Assembly (NCBI GenBank): GCA_029213045.1
Contig: JARGPN010000006.1
Coordinates: 356,123 to 420,122 of the forward strand
Direction: 5' to 3'
DNA from: Alcanivoracaceae bacterium
Lineage (GTDB): Bacteria > Pseudomonadota > Gammaproteobacteria > Pseudomonadales > Alcanivoracaceae
DNA length: 64,000 bases
Shown: piece by piece, positions 12,364 through 43,850 of the stretch
How the letters are laid out: every line of letters begins with the position of its first letter
How positions within the stretch are numbered: the stretch's first letter is position 1
The notes under the pieces: model-generated
The model's input: only the letters and a program-made list of their open reading frames with translations
What the model was told of the DNA's origin: nothing
Database searches by the model: none
Made by a program: the position numbers and the translations under genes

Positions 12364-13590
12364 TCATATCCCATCACTTTTAATCTTGTCCTTAAATCCA
12401 AATCGCTCTGGCGCCCTATTCGCCATAACAATCGCTTCCGCTCTGGAACCAACTTTTAACTTCCCAAAAATATTCTTGATGTGCCACTTAATGGTCGTCA
12501 CTGCAACGCCGGATTGTTCGCTGATTTCCTTATTGGAAATACCCTTACGTAGTAAATCCAAAATATCTGTTTCACGGGTCGTTAACCTATCGATTGCCGC
12601 ATTGTCACCTGCCGCCGCGCCGATTTCTTCTACCTGAGCGGATGCATTGAATGAAGCAAGCATCGCTGCGTACATACTCGGCGCATTAATAACGTTGTGT
12701 TTTATCTGCGTGAGAATAAGCGCATAAAGTCGCAACCCTTCGTCCGACTCAACCCTATTTAGATACGGAATACCGCGGCCTAAAGCCGGCTGACTAATTC
12801 GAGTATCGGGTTTATCGCTGAATCCATGGCGCCATGCCTCCACTACGCGATTCGCCTCGGAAACCGTTGCCGATTGAGACAAAGCCATCAGCCCCAATTT
12901 AACACCCGCAGTCCAGCCTTCTGTCATTGTTAGTAACTGGTTGCGACACTCTTCAGCCAATGAAGGGCACAATCGCTCGCTCAATTCCATAATTTCGGAT
13001 TCCGAGAAGCGCAAATCATGATGATCAATCACTTGCGCACGACCATCTAGCTTTAATCGACTCAATGAAAACCGAGGATGGGTATGACTCGCGACTATAA
13101 AGTGAATATTATGGGGAAGCCTCGCTATCAACTCCGCAAACATTTCATGAATAAATATGCTGTCGGCGCAATGAAAGTCATCAACCAAAATATACAAAGG
13201 CGTTTCAATTGACGACAACGCGTCGGCCAATCGTTCGGCAAGCACCTGAGACTGTTTCCCTGGTTCAACACTGGGATCATCACAAGAAAGACCATGGTAA
13301 TTCGAGACCATATCGCTCAGTGCGCTATTTAAACGATTTAAAAAATGGGACGGGTCCGCATCGCACTGATCTAAATTAATCACCGCTAACGGCAACTCTG
13401 GATGCGTATTTCGCCACTGCATAAGAAGCGTTGATTTACCGCTCCCCGCTGGCGCCAACAAAAGCGTGAGCGCGTAATTGTCGGCGCGATTCAACAGCGC
13501 AACGAGATCGGCGCGGTTTACGTAGGCGTCGTTTAGGTAGCCATCTAACGAAGCTAATTCTTTATCGGTATTATTTTTTATTTTTCTCAT
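12364..13590 (-). CDS. Compact MalT-like LuxR-family ATP-dependent regulator
   Basis: 408 residues. The N-terminus has a STAND/AP-ATPase P-loop, LAPAGSGKSTLL near residue 50, and a Walker-B-like LYILVDDFHCAD near residue 130. The C-terminal 65 residues are a LuxR helix-turn-helix (LTTRETDILDLLRKGISNKE, then TTIKWHIKNIFGKL). MalT proteins are near 900 residues with a large TPR sensor domain; here that domain is almost absent and about 100 residues join ATPase and DNA-binding parts. It is divergent from the RoxA-like gene, which it may control. Partner or ligand is unknown. Confidence 0.88.
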   Translation of the reverse strand: MRKIKNNTDKELASLDGYLNDAYVNRADLVALLNRADNYALTLLLAPAGSGKSTLLMQWRNTHPELPLAVINLDQCDADPSHFLNRLNSALSDMVSNYHGLSCDDPSVEPGKQSQVLAERLADALSSIETPLYILVDDFHCADSIFIHEMFAELIARLPHNIHFIVASHTHPRFSLSRLKLDGRAQVIDHHDLRFSESEIMELSERLCPSLAEECRNQLLTMTEGWTAGVKLGLMALSQSATVSEANRVVEAWRHGFSDKPDTRISQPALGRGIPYLNRVESDEGLRLYALILTQIKHNVINAPSMYAAMLASFNASAQVEEIGAAAGDNAAIDRLTTRETDILDLLRKGISNKEISEQSGVAVTTIKWHIKNIFGKLKVGSRAEAIVMANRAPERFGFKDKIKSDGI

Positions 13591-13752
13591 GCCATCTTCT
13601 TATTATGTCGGCATTTAAGGACTTAAACAGTAGCACAAAGCCTATTCTCAAACAGTACGAACGTTCAAAAAACCCTACTTTAGGAGGGCGATATTTGATT
13701 CACGTCATGGCAGTGTAACCGCGTTGATACATCCACAAGGAGGGTCATAAAA

Positions 13753-16071
13753 ATGATAAAGGCTCATCATCTTTTCGGTATTTTTATTTTTACGCCGCTG
13801 TTCAGCGGTTGCATTGGCGAATCAGTCGGCGAGTTTCCGGATCAGGAAGTCACATGTGGTTTCGACGCAGCGCGTGAACTTAACCGTGCCGTTTCCTCAT
13901 TGAATTTCCCCTCGCCTGTTATTAACACGATAAAAATTAATGGCGTTCAGGTTTGGAGCCTGAGCAATCCATCCGTTGCGCCGACATTCCGCCCAGGCGA
14001 TGTAGTCACGTTAATGGGCTCAGGTTTGGGCAATGGCCCTGACATTGATTTCACTAAGCTGATGATCGGCAATAGCCGAATCCTCGAAACCGACTTGGTG
14101 ATGTATAAGCAAGTTCTCGACATTAGCAAGCAGGTCAATTTCGAAAAGCCCGAGCTCCATAGCAGCTGGAGCAAAGATGTACTTTCGTGGAAGAACAACG
14201 AAGTAAAATTCCGCGTGCCGACTCATGTTAGCGAAGGGCCGCTAAAACTGCAGGTGCAGAAACGGGTTGGCTATAATACTTCCCTCACCAAACCAGGCAG
14301 TGCACACAACGTCATTGATGCACAAACCAAGCGCATCACCGACGAAGACTTCACTCATTCCTGCGATGTTGTTTCAAAATTGTCAGAGACTAAATCGGCG
14401 CAGCCTATAGACGTTAATGTTATTAACCCGAACATAAACGCCTTGGTTAAACGTGGTCGCGAAATTTTCTGGTCGTACGACTACAACATTGGCTTGGCGC
14501 ACAAGGTTAGAAATCTCGATTGGACGAAAATCTTTGAATATAAGACCGTCGATCCTATTACGCGTCAAACGGCTGATCCGGCGCTGCTCTTTGGTGCTTA
14601 TAAAACAGTCACAGGCGAAGTTCCCGACGAAGCTATCAAGGATGTTTACTTCAATCCCTATCCTCAGCCCAACCCTATTCCAGGACTACTGACGGTGAAC
14701 AAGCAGCTCACCAAAGGCAACACACGTGATACTGGCTGGGTTGGCTACCGTTACGCGGAATCTAATCACCCTTATACCGGAAAAGGGTCTTGGGCTGGAT
14801 TTAACTGCGCGTCCTGCCATAGCTATCGCATCACTTATGAACCAGCGCCGAATCAGCAAGTCACTAAAGTTATTCCAGGCCTACCGAACCCAGAGTGGTC
14901 GATGAAGTGGTCTATCTTGGGCGATAAAAAAGGATCTACCACCGCAACCTTTGACGGCATTGAAGCCAAAGAACCAGGCCCAGCGTTCGACCCCAACTCG
15001 AAAGATATTGATCGCACCACATTGATCTATTACATGCCGGCCGGTACTGGTGAACACAATATGATTCGCGCATCGAATGAAGGAAGCGAAACGGATAACG
15101 ATCACCAATTCTCGCCAATCGCCATTCCTAACGTCACCAACTACATGGCGATTCGCCGTTCGCTTTCACACACTGAATCGTATGTCGGCTTTGAAGGCTC
15201 TTATATCCACGCAGAAGAACCAGATGGCGCGATGGGATCAATGAGCGCCGACGCCTTGAAGGCGCTCACTGCGTATATGACCGTGCTCGATGAAGACGAC
15301 GATGACTTGCGTAACGTTGGTTTATATCGCTGGTTAAAGAGCACCAATAAACTCGCGGCGCAAACAGGTTCTAGCTCTTTATCTGAAGGTGCTTTTGTAC
15401 AAACCGGTTGGCAGTCTTTTGCGGGTGTAAGCAACGTGGTTAGCCAAGGCAAACAAATATTTGATCGCGACTGCGGCAGTTGCCACACCGATCAAATGGG
15501 TGCCCACACCAATGAACGCATGTTCCGCCTAGATGAAGTCGGCCGTTTCTTCGCGCCGACGATCTATCAAAAGGATCAGCAATCCATTCGCGCCAATTAT
15601 TTACGTGACATGTATTGGACGCAATCGCGAGGACTGCTTAGCGATGGTCACGTACGTAACCTCGAAGACTTGGTTAGCCCTGATCGCTGCACAGAAGGGA
15701 CCGCCCTGTACAATCAATACTACACATTGCATGCGCCTGTTCGTCCCGAGCCAGGCTCACCGGATCAACCGAAACCTTGGCCGGACCTCAACCGTAAAGG
15801 CGATGCGTTTCGCGTCTACAAAAATGTGGAGTACAGCAGCAGCGACACATCCACCAAACGCAATCGCTTTATTGAACGTCACAAATACTTTGTCGAAGTG
15901 CCGTGGGATAGCGAGAACTACTATTGGGATTACCAAAAAATGCGTGCCGAATACGGCCCAGAAGAAATGGGCACTGCAACGCCAATCGGTTTGCCTGCAG
16001 CGCCGCACCCTTGGTGCGCAGCGTCTGCGTCAGACATAGATCCGCTAGTCCAGTACGTATTAACGCTCTAG
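13753..16071 (+). CDS. RoxA/RoxB-like dihaem cytochrome c lipoprotein
   Basis: 772 residues, ATG at 13753 behind AAGGAGG. The N-terminus ends in the lipobox FSGC. Residues about 60-170 look like an IPT/TIG-type beta sandwich (FRPGDVVTLMGSGLGNGPDI). Two c-type haem sites occur: CASCH at 352-356 and CGSCH at 574-578. Spacing, length and the motif RGLLSDGHVRNLEDLV place it near the dihaem oxygenase/peroxidase group that includes rubber oxygenases RoxA and RoxB. RoxA-type proteins cleave polyisoprene oxidatively outside the cell; this lipoprotein would be tethered to the envelope. Substrate is inference and another oxidative role is possible. Confidence 0.78.
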   Translation: MIKAHHLFGIFIFTPLFSGCIGESVGEFPDQEVTCGFDAARELNRAVSSLNFPSPVINTIKINGVQVWSLSNPSVAPTFRPGDVVTLMGSGLGNGPDIDFTKLMIGNSRILETDLVMYKQVLDISKQVNFEKPELHSSWSKDVLSWKNNEVKFRVPTHVSEGPLKLQVQKRVGYNTSLTKPGSAHNVIDAQTKRITDEDFTHSCDVVSKLSETKSAQPIDVNVINPNINALVKRGREIFWSYDYNIGLAHKVRNLDWTKIFEYKTVDPITRQTADPALLFGAYKTVTGEVPDEAIKDVYFNPYPQPNPIPGLLTVNKQLTKGNTRDTGWVGYRYAESNHPYTGKGSWAGFNCASCHSYRITYEPAPNQQVTKVIPGLPNPEWSMKWSILGDKKGSTTATFDGIEAKEPGPAFDPNSKDIDRTTLIYYMPAGTGEHNMIRASNEGSETDNDHQFSPIAIPNVTNYMAIRRSLSHTESYVGFEGSYIHAEEPDGAMGSMSADALKALTAYMTVLDEDDDDLRNVGLYRWLKSTNKLAAQTGSSSLSEGAFVQTGWQSFAGVSNVVSQGKQIFDRDCGSCHTDQMGAHTNERMFRLDEVGRFFAPTIYQKDQQSIRANYLRDMYWTQSRGLLSDGHVRNLEDLVSPDRCTEGTALYNQYYTLHAPVRPEPGSPDQPKPWPDLNRKGDAFRVYKNVEYSSSDTSTKRNRFIERHKYFVEVPWDSENYYWDYQKMRAEYGPEEMGTATPIGLPAAPHPWCAASASDIDPLVQYVLTL

Positions 16072-16089: not shown

Positions 16090-16124
16090 AAAGCGGCCAA
16101 GCGTAGAGCTTGGCCGCTTTTTTA
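16090..16124 (+). terminator. Rho-independent terminator after the dihaem protein gene
   Basis: A 13-bp perfect stem AAAGCGGCCAAGC / GCTTGGCCGCTTT (16090-16102 and 16108-16120), 5-nt loop, continues into seven T residues 16118-16124. Confidence 0.95.
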
Positions 16125-41342: not shown

Positions 41343-43850
41343 GTGAAAATTAAATTTAAAAAGAAACTTCAAGAACAAATACCGTTATCTCGGAACGCAC
41401 GGATAACAAATTCATTATGCATTCTCGCGATTGCGTTAAGTGGCTGCGTCGCAACCAGCGAAGAAGAAATTAATCCGGAAGATATAACGTCTGCTATTGT
41501 TGAAGGCGCCAGCGATTATCTCTATGAAAGCTCTGCGACGGATACCACCAAACCCGCCGTTATATCGACCCTATCAGCAACAACACTCTCTTCAAATAGC
41601 TTACGTTTAAACTGGACATCACCCGGTGATGACGGCATGACTGGCACCGCAAAAGATTACGACATTCGGTACAACACGTCACCAATCGATCGCTCAAATT
41701 GGAAGAGCTCAATAAAATTAACGAATGAACCTGCACCTCAAGAGGCCGGCACAAATCAATCCGTTACAGTTGACGGACTAGATGCTGGCACCGAATATTT
41801 TTTCACCATGAAAACGTCAGATGAATCACGCAACAGAAGCAAACGCAGCAACGTCGCGAGTGCAACAACAGATACTGACGTGATTGAGACAACGCAAGAC
41901 ACCACCGCTCCGGCGAAAATTAGCGCGCTCTCTGCAACAGTGCTTTCAACCTCGAGTGTGCGACTCAATTGGACGGCACCTGGCGATGATGACAACAGCG
42001 GCACTGCATCAAGTTATGACATTCGCTTTGCTAATGTTGTCATTACAAATGGAAACTGGAACGGCATAACCCAAGCCGTCGGCGAGTCAAACCCTGGCGC
42101 TGCGGGCGACGCTCAGTCATTTACAATCAACGGGCTCAACGCAAACAGCCAATATTTCTTTGCAATTAAAACGCAAGATAAAGCAGGCAATGAAAGTATC
42201 TTAAGCAATGTGGTAAGCGGCACTACACTGGCCAATACGTCGGGCGCTGCAACAACACCAGGCACTGCAACGTCGCCTTACCCAACCATTAAGCACCTTT
42301 CTATTGAGTGGCCAATTAGCGGCGACAACGATGAGGACGGCGTTGTGTCTGTACGCTATCGTCAAAAAGGCAGCTCTGCGTGGAAAAAAGGAATGGATCT
42401 ATTCCGTGTGCCCGCGGGCAGCAATGAAGGCTTCTCATGGAAGAACAAGCATTCTGGCAGCCTGTTCAATCTTGCGGCCAACACAGAATATGACATTGAA
42501 CTGACACTCGACGATCCGGATAACGGCTCAACTATCGTGCAAACATTGAATGCCCGCACGCGCGCTGTTCCTCAGGCCGCCGCAGGCGCAAAGGTAGTGA
42601 ACGTTACGCCATCAAATTTTTCTAATGCATTAAGCAACGCCAGTGCTGGCGATCTCATTGTGCTCGGCGCAGGAACCTACTCTGGCTTCACTGTCGGCCG
42701 TGATGGCGCACCTGGCCAACCGATTGTGATTCGCGGCGCAAACAAAAACAGTGTGATCATTAATGGCGATATACGCATGGATAACCGCCACGATGTCTAC
42801 ATCGAATCAGTCACTGTCAACGGCACCATTAAATTTAACAGCAGTGAACGTATTGTTGTCCGCGGCTCCAAGATCAACACAAACGGTAGCGGTATTGTTG
42901 CGCAAGGAAATGGCACTGTGAATTCCTATATCGCTGACAACGTCGTACTTGGCTCTACCACTTGGAGCAACAACACCGTCGGCAATAACGGCAGCAACAC
43001 TGGAGAAGGAATAGAACTTACTGGCCCTGGCAATGTTATAGCGTATAACTATGTGAAAGGATTCCGTGACTGTATTTCATTGCTCGAAGATGACGAAGCG
43101 GTAAATCAACTCTCTTTCGATATTTATAACAACGATATTGAAATTGGTGCTGATGACGCGATCGAAGCCGACTTCGCCATGGGTAACGTGCGCGTGCTGA
43201 ACAATCGCATCACCAACTCGTACGTCGGATTAAGCTCGCAGCCAAGCCTCGGAGGGCCAACCTACTTTATCGGCAACGTGCTATATAACGTGGTTTACAC
43301 TGCATTCAAACTGCATCGCGGTAGCGTTGGTGATGTTGCACTACACAACACCATTGTTAAACCTGGCGACGCTTTCGGAGTGTTCACCACCGATACTTGG
43401 TCCCATGCCTACTTCCGCAATAATATCTTTATCGGCGGAAATGTATCCGGACAAGTAGGACCATATGGCATTGGTAGCGGCGACGTCGCAAACCTGCGTG
43501 CTGCGGCGAGCAACACCAGCTTCGACTTTGACGCCTACGGTTCGATCGGCGGCAGTTTTTCAGGCCGCATTGGCAGCACGACCTTTAGCAGCTTAAACAC
43601 ACTGCGCAACAACACCACTGAAACGCATGCGCAACAAGTGGATATGAGCATCTTCGCCGGGGGCGTCACGTTCCCAGATACGGTGTTCCCAGCGCGCGGC
43701 GTTCCTGATCTATTCCTCAAGTCAGGCACAGCAGTGATTGATGCGGGCGTTGTCATCCCAAACATTAACGATGGATATACTGGTAGCGCACCCGACCTAG
43801 GCGCCTACGAACTTGGTGGAACCCAGCCTACCTACGGCCCACGTTCTTAA
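41343..43850 (+). CDS. FN3-repeat and right-handed beta-helix lipoprotein
   Basis: 835 residues from GTG 41343 (AGGTGA seven nt upstream). Lipobox ALSGC near residue 34. Two clear fibronectin type III domains follow (ISTLSATTLSSNSLRLNWTS at about 75 and ISALSATVLSTSSVRLNWTA at about 192), and a third, weaker one near 320-410. From about 420 the protein is a parallel beta-helix of pectin-lyase type, with turns such as VIRGANKNSVIINGDIRMDN and VYIESVTVNGTIKFNSSER. Such proteins bind or cleave acidic polysaccharides. No catalytic residue can be assigned, so lyase activity is unproven. Probably surface exposed. Confidence 0.85.
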   Translation: MKIKFKKKLQEQIPLSRNARITNSLCILAIALSGCVATSEEEINPEDITSAIVEGASDYLYESSATDTTKPAVISTLSATTLSSNSLRLNWTSPGDDGMTGTAKDYDIRYNTSPIDRSNWKSSIKLTNEPAPQEAGTNQSVTVDGLDAGTEYFFTMKTSDESRNRSKRSNVASATTDTDVIETTQDTTAPAKISALSATVLSTSSVRLNWTAPGDDDNSGTASSYDIRFANVVITNGNWNGITQAVGESNPGAAGDAQSFTINGLNANSQYFFAIKTQDKAGNESILSNVVSGTTLANTSGAATTPGTATSPYPTIKHLSIEWPISGDNDEDGVVSVRYRQKGSSAWKKGMDLFRVPAGSNEGFSWKNKHSGSLFNLAANTEYDIELTLDDPDNGSTIVQTLNARTRAVPQAAAGAKVVNVTPSNFSNALSNASAGDLIVLGAGTYSGFTVGRDGAPGQPIVIRGANKNSVIINGDIRMDNRHDVYIESVTVNGTIKFNSSERIVVRGSKINTNGSGIVAQGNGTVNSYIADNVVLGSTTWSNNTVGNNGSNTGEGIELTGPGNVIAYNYVKGFRDCISLLEDDEAVNQLSFDIYNNDIEIGADDAIEADFAMGNVRVLNNRITNSYVGLSSQPSLGGPTYFIGNVLYNVVYTAFKLHRGSVGDVALHNTIVKPGDAFGVFTTDTWSHAYFRNNIFIGGNVSGQVGPYGIGSGDVANLRAAASNTSFDFDAYGSIGGSFSGRIGSTTFSSLNTLRNNTTETHAQQVDMSIFAGGVTFPDTVFPARGVPDLFLKSGTAVIDAGVVIPNINDGYTGSAPDLGAYELGGTQPTYGPRS

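Follow-up and report, generated by a model that had tools for sequence, protein, structure and literature searches.

A predicted di-haem c-type lipoprotein of an unnamed RoxA/cytochrome c peroxidase subfamily beside a shortened LuxR/MalT-like regulator in an Alcanivoracaceae bacterium

Results and discussion

A divergent gene pair encodes a di-haem protein and a regulator

The DNA analysed here (the window) is a stretch of 64,000 nucleotides from an Alcanivoracaceae bacterium (assembly GCA_029213045.1, contig JARGPN010000006.1, positions 356,123 to 420,122 of the forward strand), and coordinates below are those of the window. A coding sequence with an ATG start (13753..16071, + strand) encodes a protein of 772 aa consisting of a lipoprotein signal, an IPT/TIG domain and a di-haem core of the RoxA/cytochrome c peroxidase (CcP) type. 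It is transcribed divergently from a gene (12364..13590, − strand) for a LuxR/MalT-like regulator of 408 aa with AAA and LuxR (GerE) domains, and the dyad box CCCTACTTTAGGAGGG (13673..13688, + strand) lies between the two genes, its left end 80 bp upstream of the di-haem start codon. In a preliminary description made from the sequence alone, the product was likened to a rubber oxygenase. The genome collection contained 36 related loci, 34 of them 57–88% identical (some cut by contig ends) and two 26–28% identical; the open reading frame is therefore real and not a product of chance.

The signal peptide (residues 1–20; 13753..13812, + strand) carries, by sequence pattern, the lipobox LFSGC with Cys20, in agreement with the earlier description of the protein as a lipoprotein. 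Cys20 is followed by Ile-Gly, with no Asp at +2; by the Lol rule, such a protein would be sorted to the outer membrane. The lipobox pattern was found in 18 of 37 rows of the di-haem family. Among the remaining rows, most of which show what looks by eye like a plain export signal, are copies from bins of Moraxellaceae and Burkholderiales and those of a second Alcanivorax and Thalassolituus branch. The lipoprotein trait is lineage-specific.

Residues 52–226 (13906..14430, + strand) form an IPT/TIG immunoglobulin-like domain. When the full-length protein was modelled with AF2 (mean pLDDT 71.6), this region aligned with cyclodextrin glycosyltransferase 1cgt (Z 10.1, root-mean-square deviation 1.8, 85 residues) and with EBF TIG domains (Z 6.3–6.8), and Pfam TIG matched residues 72–159 below its cut-off (E 0.038). 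The N-terminal beta-sandwich guessed from the sequence is therefore correct. The excerpts consulted of two RoxA papers (PMC6311187, PMC6797691), in which searches were aimed at other words, do not mention a front IPT domain. A Foldseek search with the full model gave no RoxA among the best 50 of 855 matches, and the further structure alignments covered the TIG domain.

The core is a distant member of the CcP/RoxA superfamily

The two c-haem motifs are CASCH at residues 352–356 (14806..14820, + strand), predicted by analogy with RoxA to hold the catalytic haem, and CGSCH at residues 574–578 (15472..15486, + strand), where Pfam cytochrome c matched. The layout of domain, CASCH and CGSCH given earlier was thus found again, and the RoxA order holds for the haem motifs. 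Both Cys and the His of each motif were kept in 40/40 rows of a family alignment, in which some rows are near-identical, three are cut copies of others and the window's own copy (L037) was left out. The residues F480, H486, E489, H633 and H710 were also invariant. The motif PHPWC (residues 751–755; 16003..16017, + strand) was present in 39/40 rows, the remaining row being cut. Its His752, the predicted second ligand of the C-terminal haem, lies 20 residues from the C-terminus, as compared with 21 for the RoxA ligand H641; this matching position makes bis-His ligation of the C-terminal haem, as seen in RoxA, probable.

The best NCBIfam match of the protein was NF040606 (di-heme cytochrome C peroxidase; 24.1 bits, E 1.8e-5), as it was for all three other family members scanned (25.0–29.5 bits). 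These scores of 24–30 bits are far under the curated 150-bit cut-off of the model. A survey of 200 phylum genomes gave an NF040606 match in 39 and passed the cut-off in 18, and a comparison set (A2) of 14 NF040606-type proteins was drawn from this survey, with two from a survey of 274 class genomes. Searched against the PDB, the A2 profile recovered RoxA (4b2n) at E 2e-26. When the core was aligned globally with A2, profile against profile, the probability reached 96.9%, with the MauG-motif segment misplaced, and a local alignment of the whole protein reached 91.3% over 37 columns at the second haem. Among cut segments, that of the first haem alone aligned strongly with A2 (97.6%) and that of the C-terminal end weakly (P 0.0045). 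In the reverse direction, the di-haem family profile scored 23.7 bits on L073 and 16.8 bits on L074, both of the NF040606 type. A PDB search with the single protein returned 0 matches at E 10 or less, and one with the family profile returned 29 weak matches, nearly all of them cytochrome c at the second haem and none of them RoxA. The window's genome contains no standard NF040606 protein.

A second AF2 model was made of the core alone (residues 218–772; mean pLDDT 73.1, pTM 0.81). Foldseek found no match to it at E 0.001 or less, and a comparison with 107 chains gave Z ≥ 2 for three only, namely the bacterial CcP BccP (3o5c; Z 7.3, 203 residues), RoxA (4b2n; Z 7.1, root-mean-square deviation 5.4, 339 residues aligned, where Z < 8 is weak by itself) and a respiratory subunit (Z 3.3). 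Together with the related profiles, these scores place the core at a distance within the CcP/RoxA superfamily. Those for 3o5c and RoxA are near-equal, so that the structure comparison favours neither RoxA nor a different di-haem family, a match to which the preliminary description had named as a refutation. The kinship with RoxA-type di-haem proteins suggested there is, at the level of the superfamily, supported by the NF040606 matches, the profile alignment and the structure comparison alike.

Residues that define RoxA are replaced in the family

RoxA and RoxB carry the motif PY(F/L/M)HNGSVP and an F317 equivalent, and RoxA carries W302, which is Val in RoxB (PMC6311187). At the place of the MauG motif PYFHNGSVP, the window protein has GLLSDGHVRN (residues 627–636; 15631..15660, + strand; weak local alignment). 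The aligned segment reads GLL(S/T)DGH in 40/40 rows, its placement as a cut segment being weak (P 0.0077), and the window protein contains no HNGS motif. The position of W302, the inter-haem Trp, is occupied by F480 in 40/40 rows, as judged against Trp290 of L074 in the global profile alignment. F480 belongs to GFEGSYIHAEEP (residues 479–490; 15187..15222, + strand), a region of low model confidence that also holds the invariant H486 and E489. Compared with the distal acid-base Glu of the CcP/MauG type and its Gln and Pro, the family has the invariant H486 and E489-P490 nearby at other spacings, again where model confidence is low.

F317 follows the W302 position by 15–18 residues in RoxA, RoxB, PA2077 and PA2078 (PMC6311187, PMC4496055). 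In the window protein, this spacing corresponds to G495–S498, provided that the F480/W302 register is right, and no Phe occurs there; the next Phe is found only at residue 548, with none in 481–547. M497 was present in 40/40 rows, and Phe was missing from the F317 place in 39/40, L044 alone having Phe at S498, directly after M497 and equal to the PA2077 spacing. The haem-proximal Phe for which the preliminary description recommended a check is thus lacking at the F317 spacing. RoxA variants at F317 showed drastically reduced activity or none (PMC6797691). Because the MauG motif and the equivalents of W302 and F317 are absent, the protein is not a rubber oxygenase by its motifs. Annotation as one is tempting, and the motif analysis corrects it.

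Among characterised enzymes, the NF040606/FadCcp type, which includes P. aeruginosa PA2077 (10S-DOX) and PA2078 (7,10-diol synthase), resembles the family in being a large exported di-haem c protein and is its best family-level sequence match; its fatty-acid substrates offer one plausible parallel. PA2077 and PA2078, however, carry PYFHNGSVP and the F317 equivalents F269 and F260, whereas the di-haem family has GLLSDGHVRN and F480; their first haem motif lies at residue 130, unlike residue 352 here, where it follows the IPT domain (PMC4496055). They are set apart here by their published description. RoxA and RoxB share with the family two CXXCH motifs and a C-terminal His near the end, and RoxA aligns in structure along the whole length of the core at the weak Z of 7.1; the MauG motif, W302 (RoxA only) and F317 are missing in the family, which adds the IPT domain and, in about half of its members, a lipobox. 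The bacterial CcP, MauG and BthA share the di-haem core fold, but have 300–400 aa as compared with 772 here; their inter-haem Trp (Ser in BthA) is replaced by Phe, their PYxHxGS motif is replaced, and His/His ligation is predicted here for the C-terminal haem. The family is a distinct subfamily, with a remodelled motif set, of a known superfamily.

A conserved dyad precedes the regulator-linked di-haem loci

The di-haem gene faces a divergent LuxR/MalT-like regulator of 875–955 aa in 11 of the 36 loci. A G+C-rich dyad was found in 13/13 regulator-linked loci (the window, L001–L011 and L036), with its left end about 79–112 bp before a start codon that was in part assigned by the author. It was absent from 18 of the 19 other loci scanned, the remaining one (L012) having a dyad at 182. 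The resulting p of 4e-8 (13/13 versus 1/19) is only a guide, because the pattern is loose and was drawn from the same 13 sequences and several loci are close relatives. In the window's genome, the form CCCTMCNNNNGGAGGG (CCCTMC-N4-GGAGGG) has a single exact match, ahead of the di-haem gene. Within the window's family (f1), which includes the Alcanivorax and Alcanivoracaceae genomes behind L002, L006, L008 and L028, the box pattern gave 79 strand matches versus 16 for the reversed control (palindromes counted twice). A one-mismatch search, in which control matches were as many as true ones for several genomes, was left out of the evidence. The dyad before regulator-linked di-haem loci appears to be new here.

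The best NCBIfam model of the 408-aa regulator was MalT, below its cut-off. The divergent LuxR/MalT-like gene read from the sequence was accordingly confirmed, with a conserved dyad upstream; a full-size form was not, since the window's copy is shortened. The 408-aa protein matches full-length homologues in two blocks, from about residues 24–241 and 241–392, which are ~490 residues apart in the 875–955 aa proteins, with the junction near residue 241. This pattern suggests that an internal segment was lost in frame while the ATPase part and the DNA-binding end were retained, and either a natural deletion or an assembly error would account for it. With a full-length regulator as query, no complete copy was detected at any other place in the window's genome. 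The sister genome G001 has a full-length regulator beside the gene for a PF03098 protein, and there an AraC-type gene faces the di-haem gene. Among plasmid matches to the regulator, the best 15 of 321 were 24–28% identical and annotated at most as generic LuxR regulators. AlkS is listed as a LuxR/MalT protein with alkane effectors (PMC3664771). The AlkS-type regulators of alkane degradation resemble the full-length neighbours in family label and likely size, in contrast to the 408 aa of the window's copy; this likeness is by description, and AlkS serves as a lead.

The box is shared with an alpha-dioxygenase homologue in relatives

The PF03098 protein of relatives (about 915–980 aa) matched 4kvj ("Fatty acid alpha-oxidase") at E 9.6e-117 and keeps the HDW and VYRMH segments, whose residue roles are described in PMC8720084; judging from these matches, it is an alpha-dioxygenase homologue. 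Fatty acid alpha-dioxygenases (4kvj, 4hhr) belong to the animal-peroxidase superfamily (PF03098) and not to the c-type di-haem proteins, and are thus no homologues of the di-haem protein; it is the box-sharing gene of the relatives that belongs with them. Of the 21 window-family genomes with a PF03098 gene, 19 have the exact box ahead of it, and the remaining two have a variant (G005) or degenerate (G016) dyad there. The gene for the full-length regulator lay beside PF03098 in all eight neighbourhoods fetched (8 of the 21 genomes), four of them from genomes without the di-haem gene.

The di-haem gene was present in 10 of 94 relatives, and PF03098 was found in 8/10 of these as compared with 19/84 of the others (p 0.0006).

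The regulator/alpha-dioxygenase pair (L149–L156, e.g. L151:6035-11708) is conserved and occurs in genomes with and without the di-haem gene. The alpha-dioxygenase homologues of this pair (915–980 aa) have a hydrophobic N-terminal segment, and in that of L004, the one scanned, the C-terminal ~300 aa match nothing in Pfam.

The subfamily is rare and patchy

A survey with profile A1 found the protein in its own genome only among 398 phylum genomes, and among 274 class genomes it found a full-length copy in its own genome only, with two short matches. The same profile gave nothing beyond the seed in 250 genomes of the order of L032, and the seed plus one short match in 58 genomes of the family of L019. 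No match to the di-haem protein was found in the plasmids. The subfamily is rare and patchy. The titles of the 36 records include six of Alcanivorax/Alcanivoracaceae, seven of Thalassolituus, Thalassobium, Oleispira or Saccharospirillaceae, one crude-oil bin, seven Moraxellaceae bins and five Burkholderiales; a few others (Pedobacter, Leptospiraceae and Spirochaetes bins) may be binning errors. Hosts of the Alcanivorax and Thalassolituus/Oleispira type are presumably hydrocarbon degraders.

The distant members L032 and L034 (about 1010–1050 aa) come from alphaproteobacterial bins and have insertions between the conserved family blocks. Separately, the 809-aa open frame L070:1-2427 has CVQCH and CATCH, a weak NF040606 match and HNNAIG in place of HNGSV, and is possibly another unnamed di-haem type.

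A possible role in the oxidation of fatty or hydrocarbon substrates

We tentatively favour the reading that the protein is an exported di-haem oxidase or (hydro)peroxidase with a lipid anchor, whose substrates would be fatty or hydrocarbon compounds, with a MalT-like regulator at the dyad that in relatives would serve an alpha-dioxygenase as well. In such a scheme, a di-haem c-type oxidase of an unnamed RoxA/CcP subfamily would have a lipoprotein tether, probably in the outer membrane. O2 or a peroxide would be bound at the N-terminal haem (Cys352-His356), and electrons would travel by way of the C-terminal haem (Cys574-His578, with His752 as second ligand). The substrate would most likely be a fatty acyl or alkyl compound, possibly a hydroperoxide made by the alpha-dioxygenase homologue that has the same upstream box in relatives. 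The divergent MalT-like regulator may act at the dyad box, the window's copy having lost the greater share of its middle (sensor) part. Rubber is a less likely target than fats or hydrocarbons because the putative control site is common with a fatty-acid-oxidising enzyme in relatives; the genome context there points to a fatty-acid alpha-dioxygenase homologue and not to a polymer. Among superfamily members, PA2077 and PA2078 act on fatty acids (PMC4496055).

Several observations weigh against this reading. As regards the dyad, the exact box would be expected by chance 1.4 times in a genome of the window's size at 55% G+C, it occurs in only 2 of the 13 loci (the window and L002; the other 11 have variants), and the dyad itself does not extend to other branches of the di-haem family. 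Of 43 exact box places in the family genomes, 22 lie before either gene and 21 elsewhere, and none of the six PF03098 genomes outside the window's family has the exact box. The association of the two genes is not significant within the window's family alone (6/8 versus 15/38, p 0.12); no PF03098 was found in the window's genome or in G011, both with the di-haem gene, and in 15 family genomes PF03098 is present while the di-haem gene is absent. As regards the core, global profile alignment of the full-length protein reached a probability of only 0.1%, the segment cut out around F480 aligned without significance in another register that did not reproduce the F480/W302 equivalence, and the pLDDT of the core model is below 50 at 455–495 (F480, H486 and E489), 586–616 and 748–752 (H752). 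No activity or expression data for the di-haem protein were found. Among the papers listed in literature searches, none on the di-haem family or its link with alpha-dioxygenase was seen, and excerpts of Thalassolituus, Oleispira and A. borkumensis proteome papers contained nothing on the protein.

A wider scenario would be an extracytoplasmic oxylipin or fatty-hydroperoxide system of the Alcanivorax family and some relatives, in which a MalT-like regulator, possibly lipid- or alkane-sensing, controls the alpha-dioxygenase and the IPT/TIG di-haem oxidase through one dyad, and of which the window's strain would keep only a reduced version: a regulator lacking its sensor, and the di-haem enzyme with no alpha-dioxygenase. 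This scenario is speculative and, taken as a whole, rather unlikely.

Alpha-dioxygenase-type enzymes form 2-hydroperoxides, and the box common with such a homologue would also suit an exported peroxidase clearing away the H2O2 or lipid hydroperoxides that arise in hydrocarbon oxidation, with no product used by the cell. This explanation agrees with the structure score level with BccP and with a di-heme cytochrome C peroxidase as best family model, and the invariant His486 and Glu489 could be acid-base residues such as the RoxA pocket does not have (PMC6797691). On the other hand, the inter-haem Trp position is Phe480 throughout, the PYxHxGS motif is absent, the protein is about twice the size of a CcP and its substrate is not known. 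The Trp is not essential in BthA, which has Ser there and keeps its activity (PMC6405878). On balance, we regard a purely detoxifying peroxidase as somewhat unlikely. A non-catalytic lipoprotein for electron transfer or sensing, both of its haems closed by bis-His ligation, could be built from H486, H633, H710 and H752, which would suffice to ligate both haems; it is improbable, as the characterised relatives are enzymes, many residues besides the haem ligands are invariant and the size is unusual for an electron carrier. A MauG-like enzyme, which would alter a partner protein (the alpha-dioxygenase or another exported protein) by long-range oxidation, finds some basis in a superfamily that includes MauG and BthA (PMC6405878) and in the box common with a large haem dioxygenase homologue, but the di-haem and PF03098 genes each occur without the other and the inter-haem Trp was not found, which makes it quite improbable. 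A membrane-tethered rubber/polyisoprene or other polymer oxygenase, as first proposed, is hardly credible despite the RoxA alignment across the whole core, the two CXXCH motifs and the RoxA-like position of the C-terminal His, given the replaced MauG, W302 and F317 positions, the drastic reduction or loss of activity on F317 variation in RoxA, the absence of RoxA from the PDB matches of sequence or family profile and the lack of a standard NF040606 protein in the genome.

In the literature consulted for comparison, RoxA, RoxB, PA2077 and PA2078 are the few large di-haem enzymes with known reactions. An oxidase or (hydro)peroxidase subfamily with a putative operator common to an alpha-dioxygenase homologue would thus provide a testable route to a new extracytoplasmic oxidative step on lipids or hydrocarbons, and the shortened regulator, if not an assembly error, a natural example of a MalT-type protein from which most of the middle region has gone.

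Other features of the locus and the window

A ribosome-binding site, AGGAGGGT (AGGAGGG; 13738..13745, + strand), precedes the di-haem gene, and a terminator-like hairpin of 13 pairs with a T run (16090..16120, + strand) lies just 3' of it; five terminator-like sites were observed in the region versus 3.4 expected. Between the divergent genes, a direct repeat, CTTAAACAGTA / CTCAAACAGTA, occurs at 13622-13632 and 13647-13657, 25 bp apart, and may be due to chance.

Among neighbours of the di-haem gene in other genomes, dGTPase, CNNM and an MMPL transporter (Thalassolituus copies), cytochrome c assembly and a TonB receptor (Burkholderiales copies) and a beta-lactamase-fold protein (L027, L028) were set aside as unconserved or housekeeping. 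In Thalassolituus and Oleispira bins, the di-haem gene is followed directly by genes of 1106 aa (L024:10705-14025) and 1085 aa (L033:10616-13873) that match nothing in Pfam. Elsewhere in the window, the protein encoded at 41343-43850 combines a purple acid phosphatase N-terminal domain with fibronectin type III domains.

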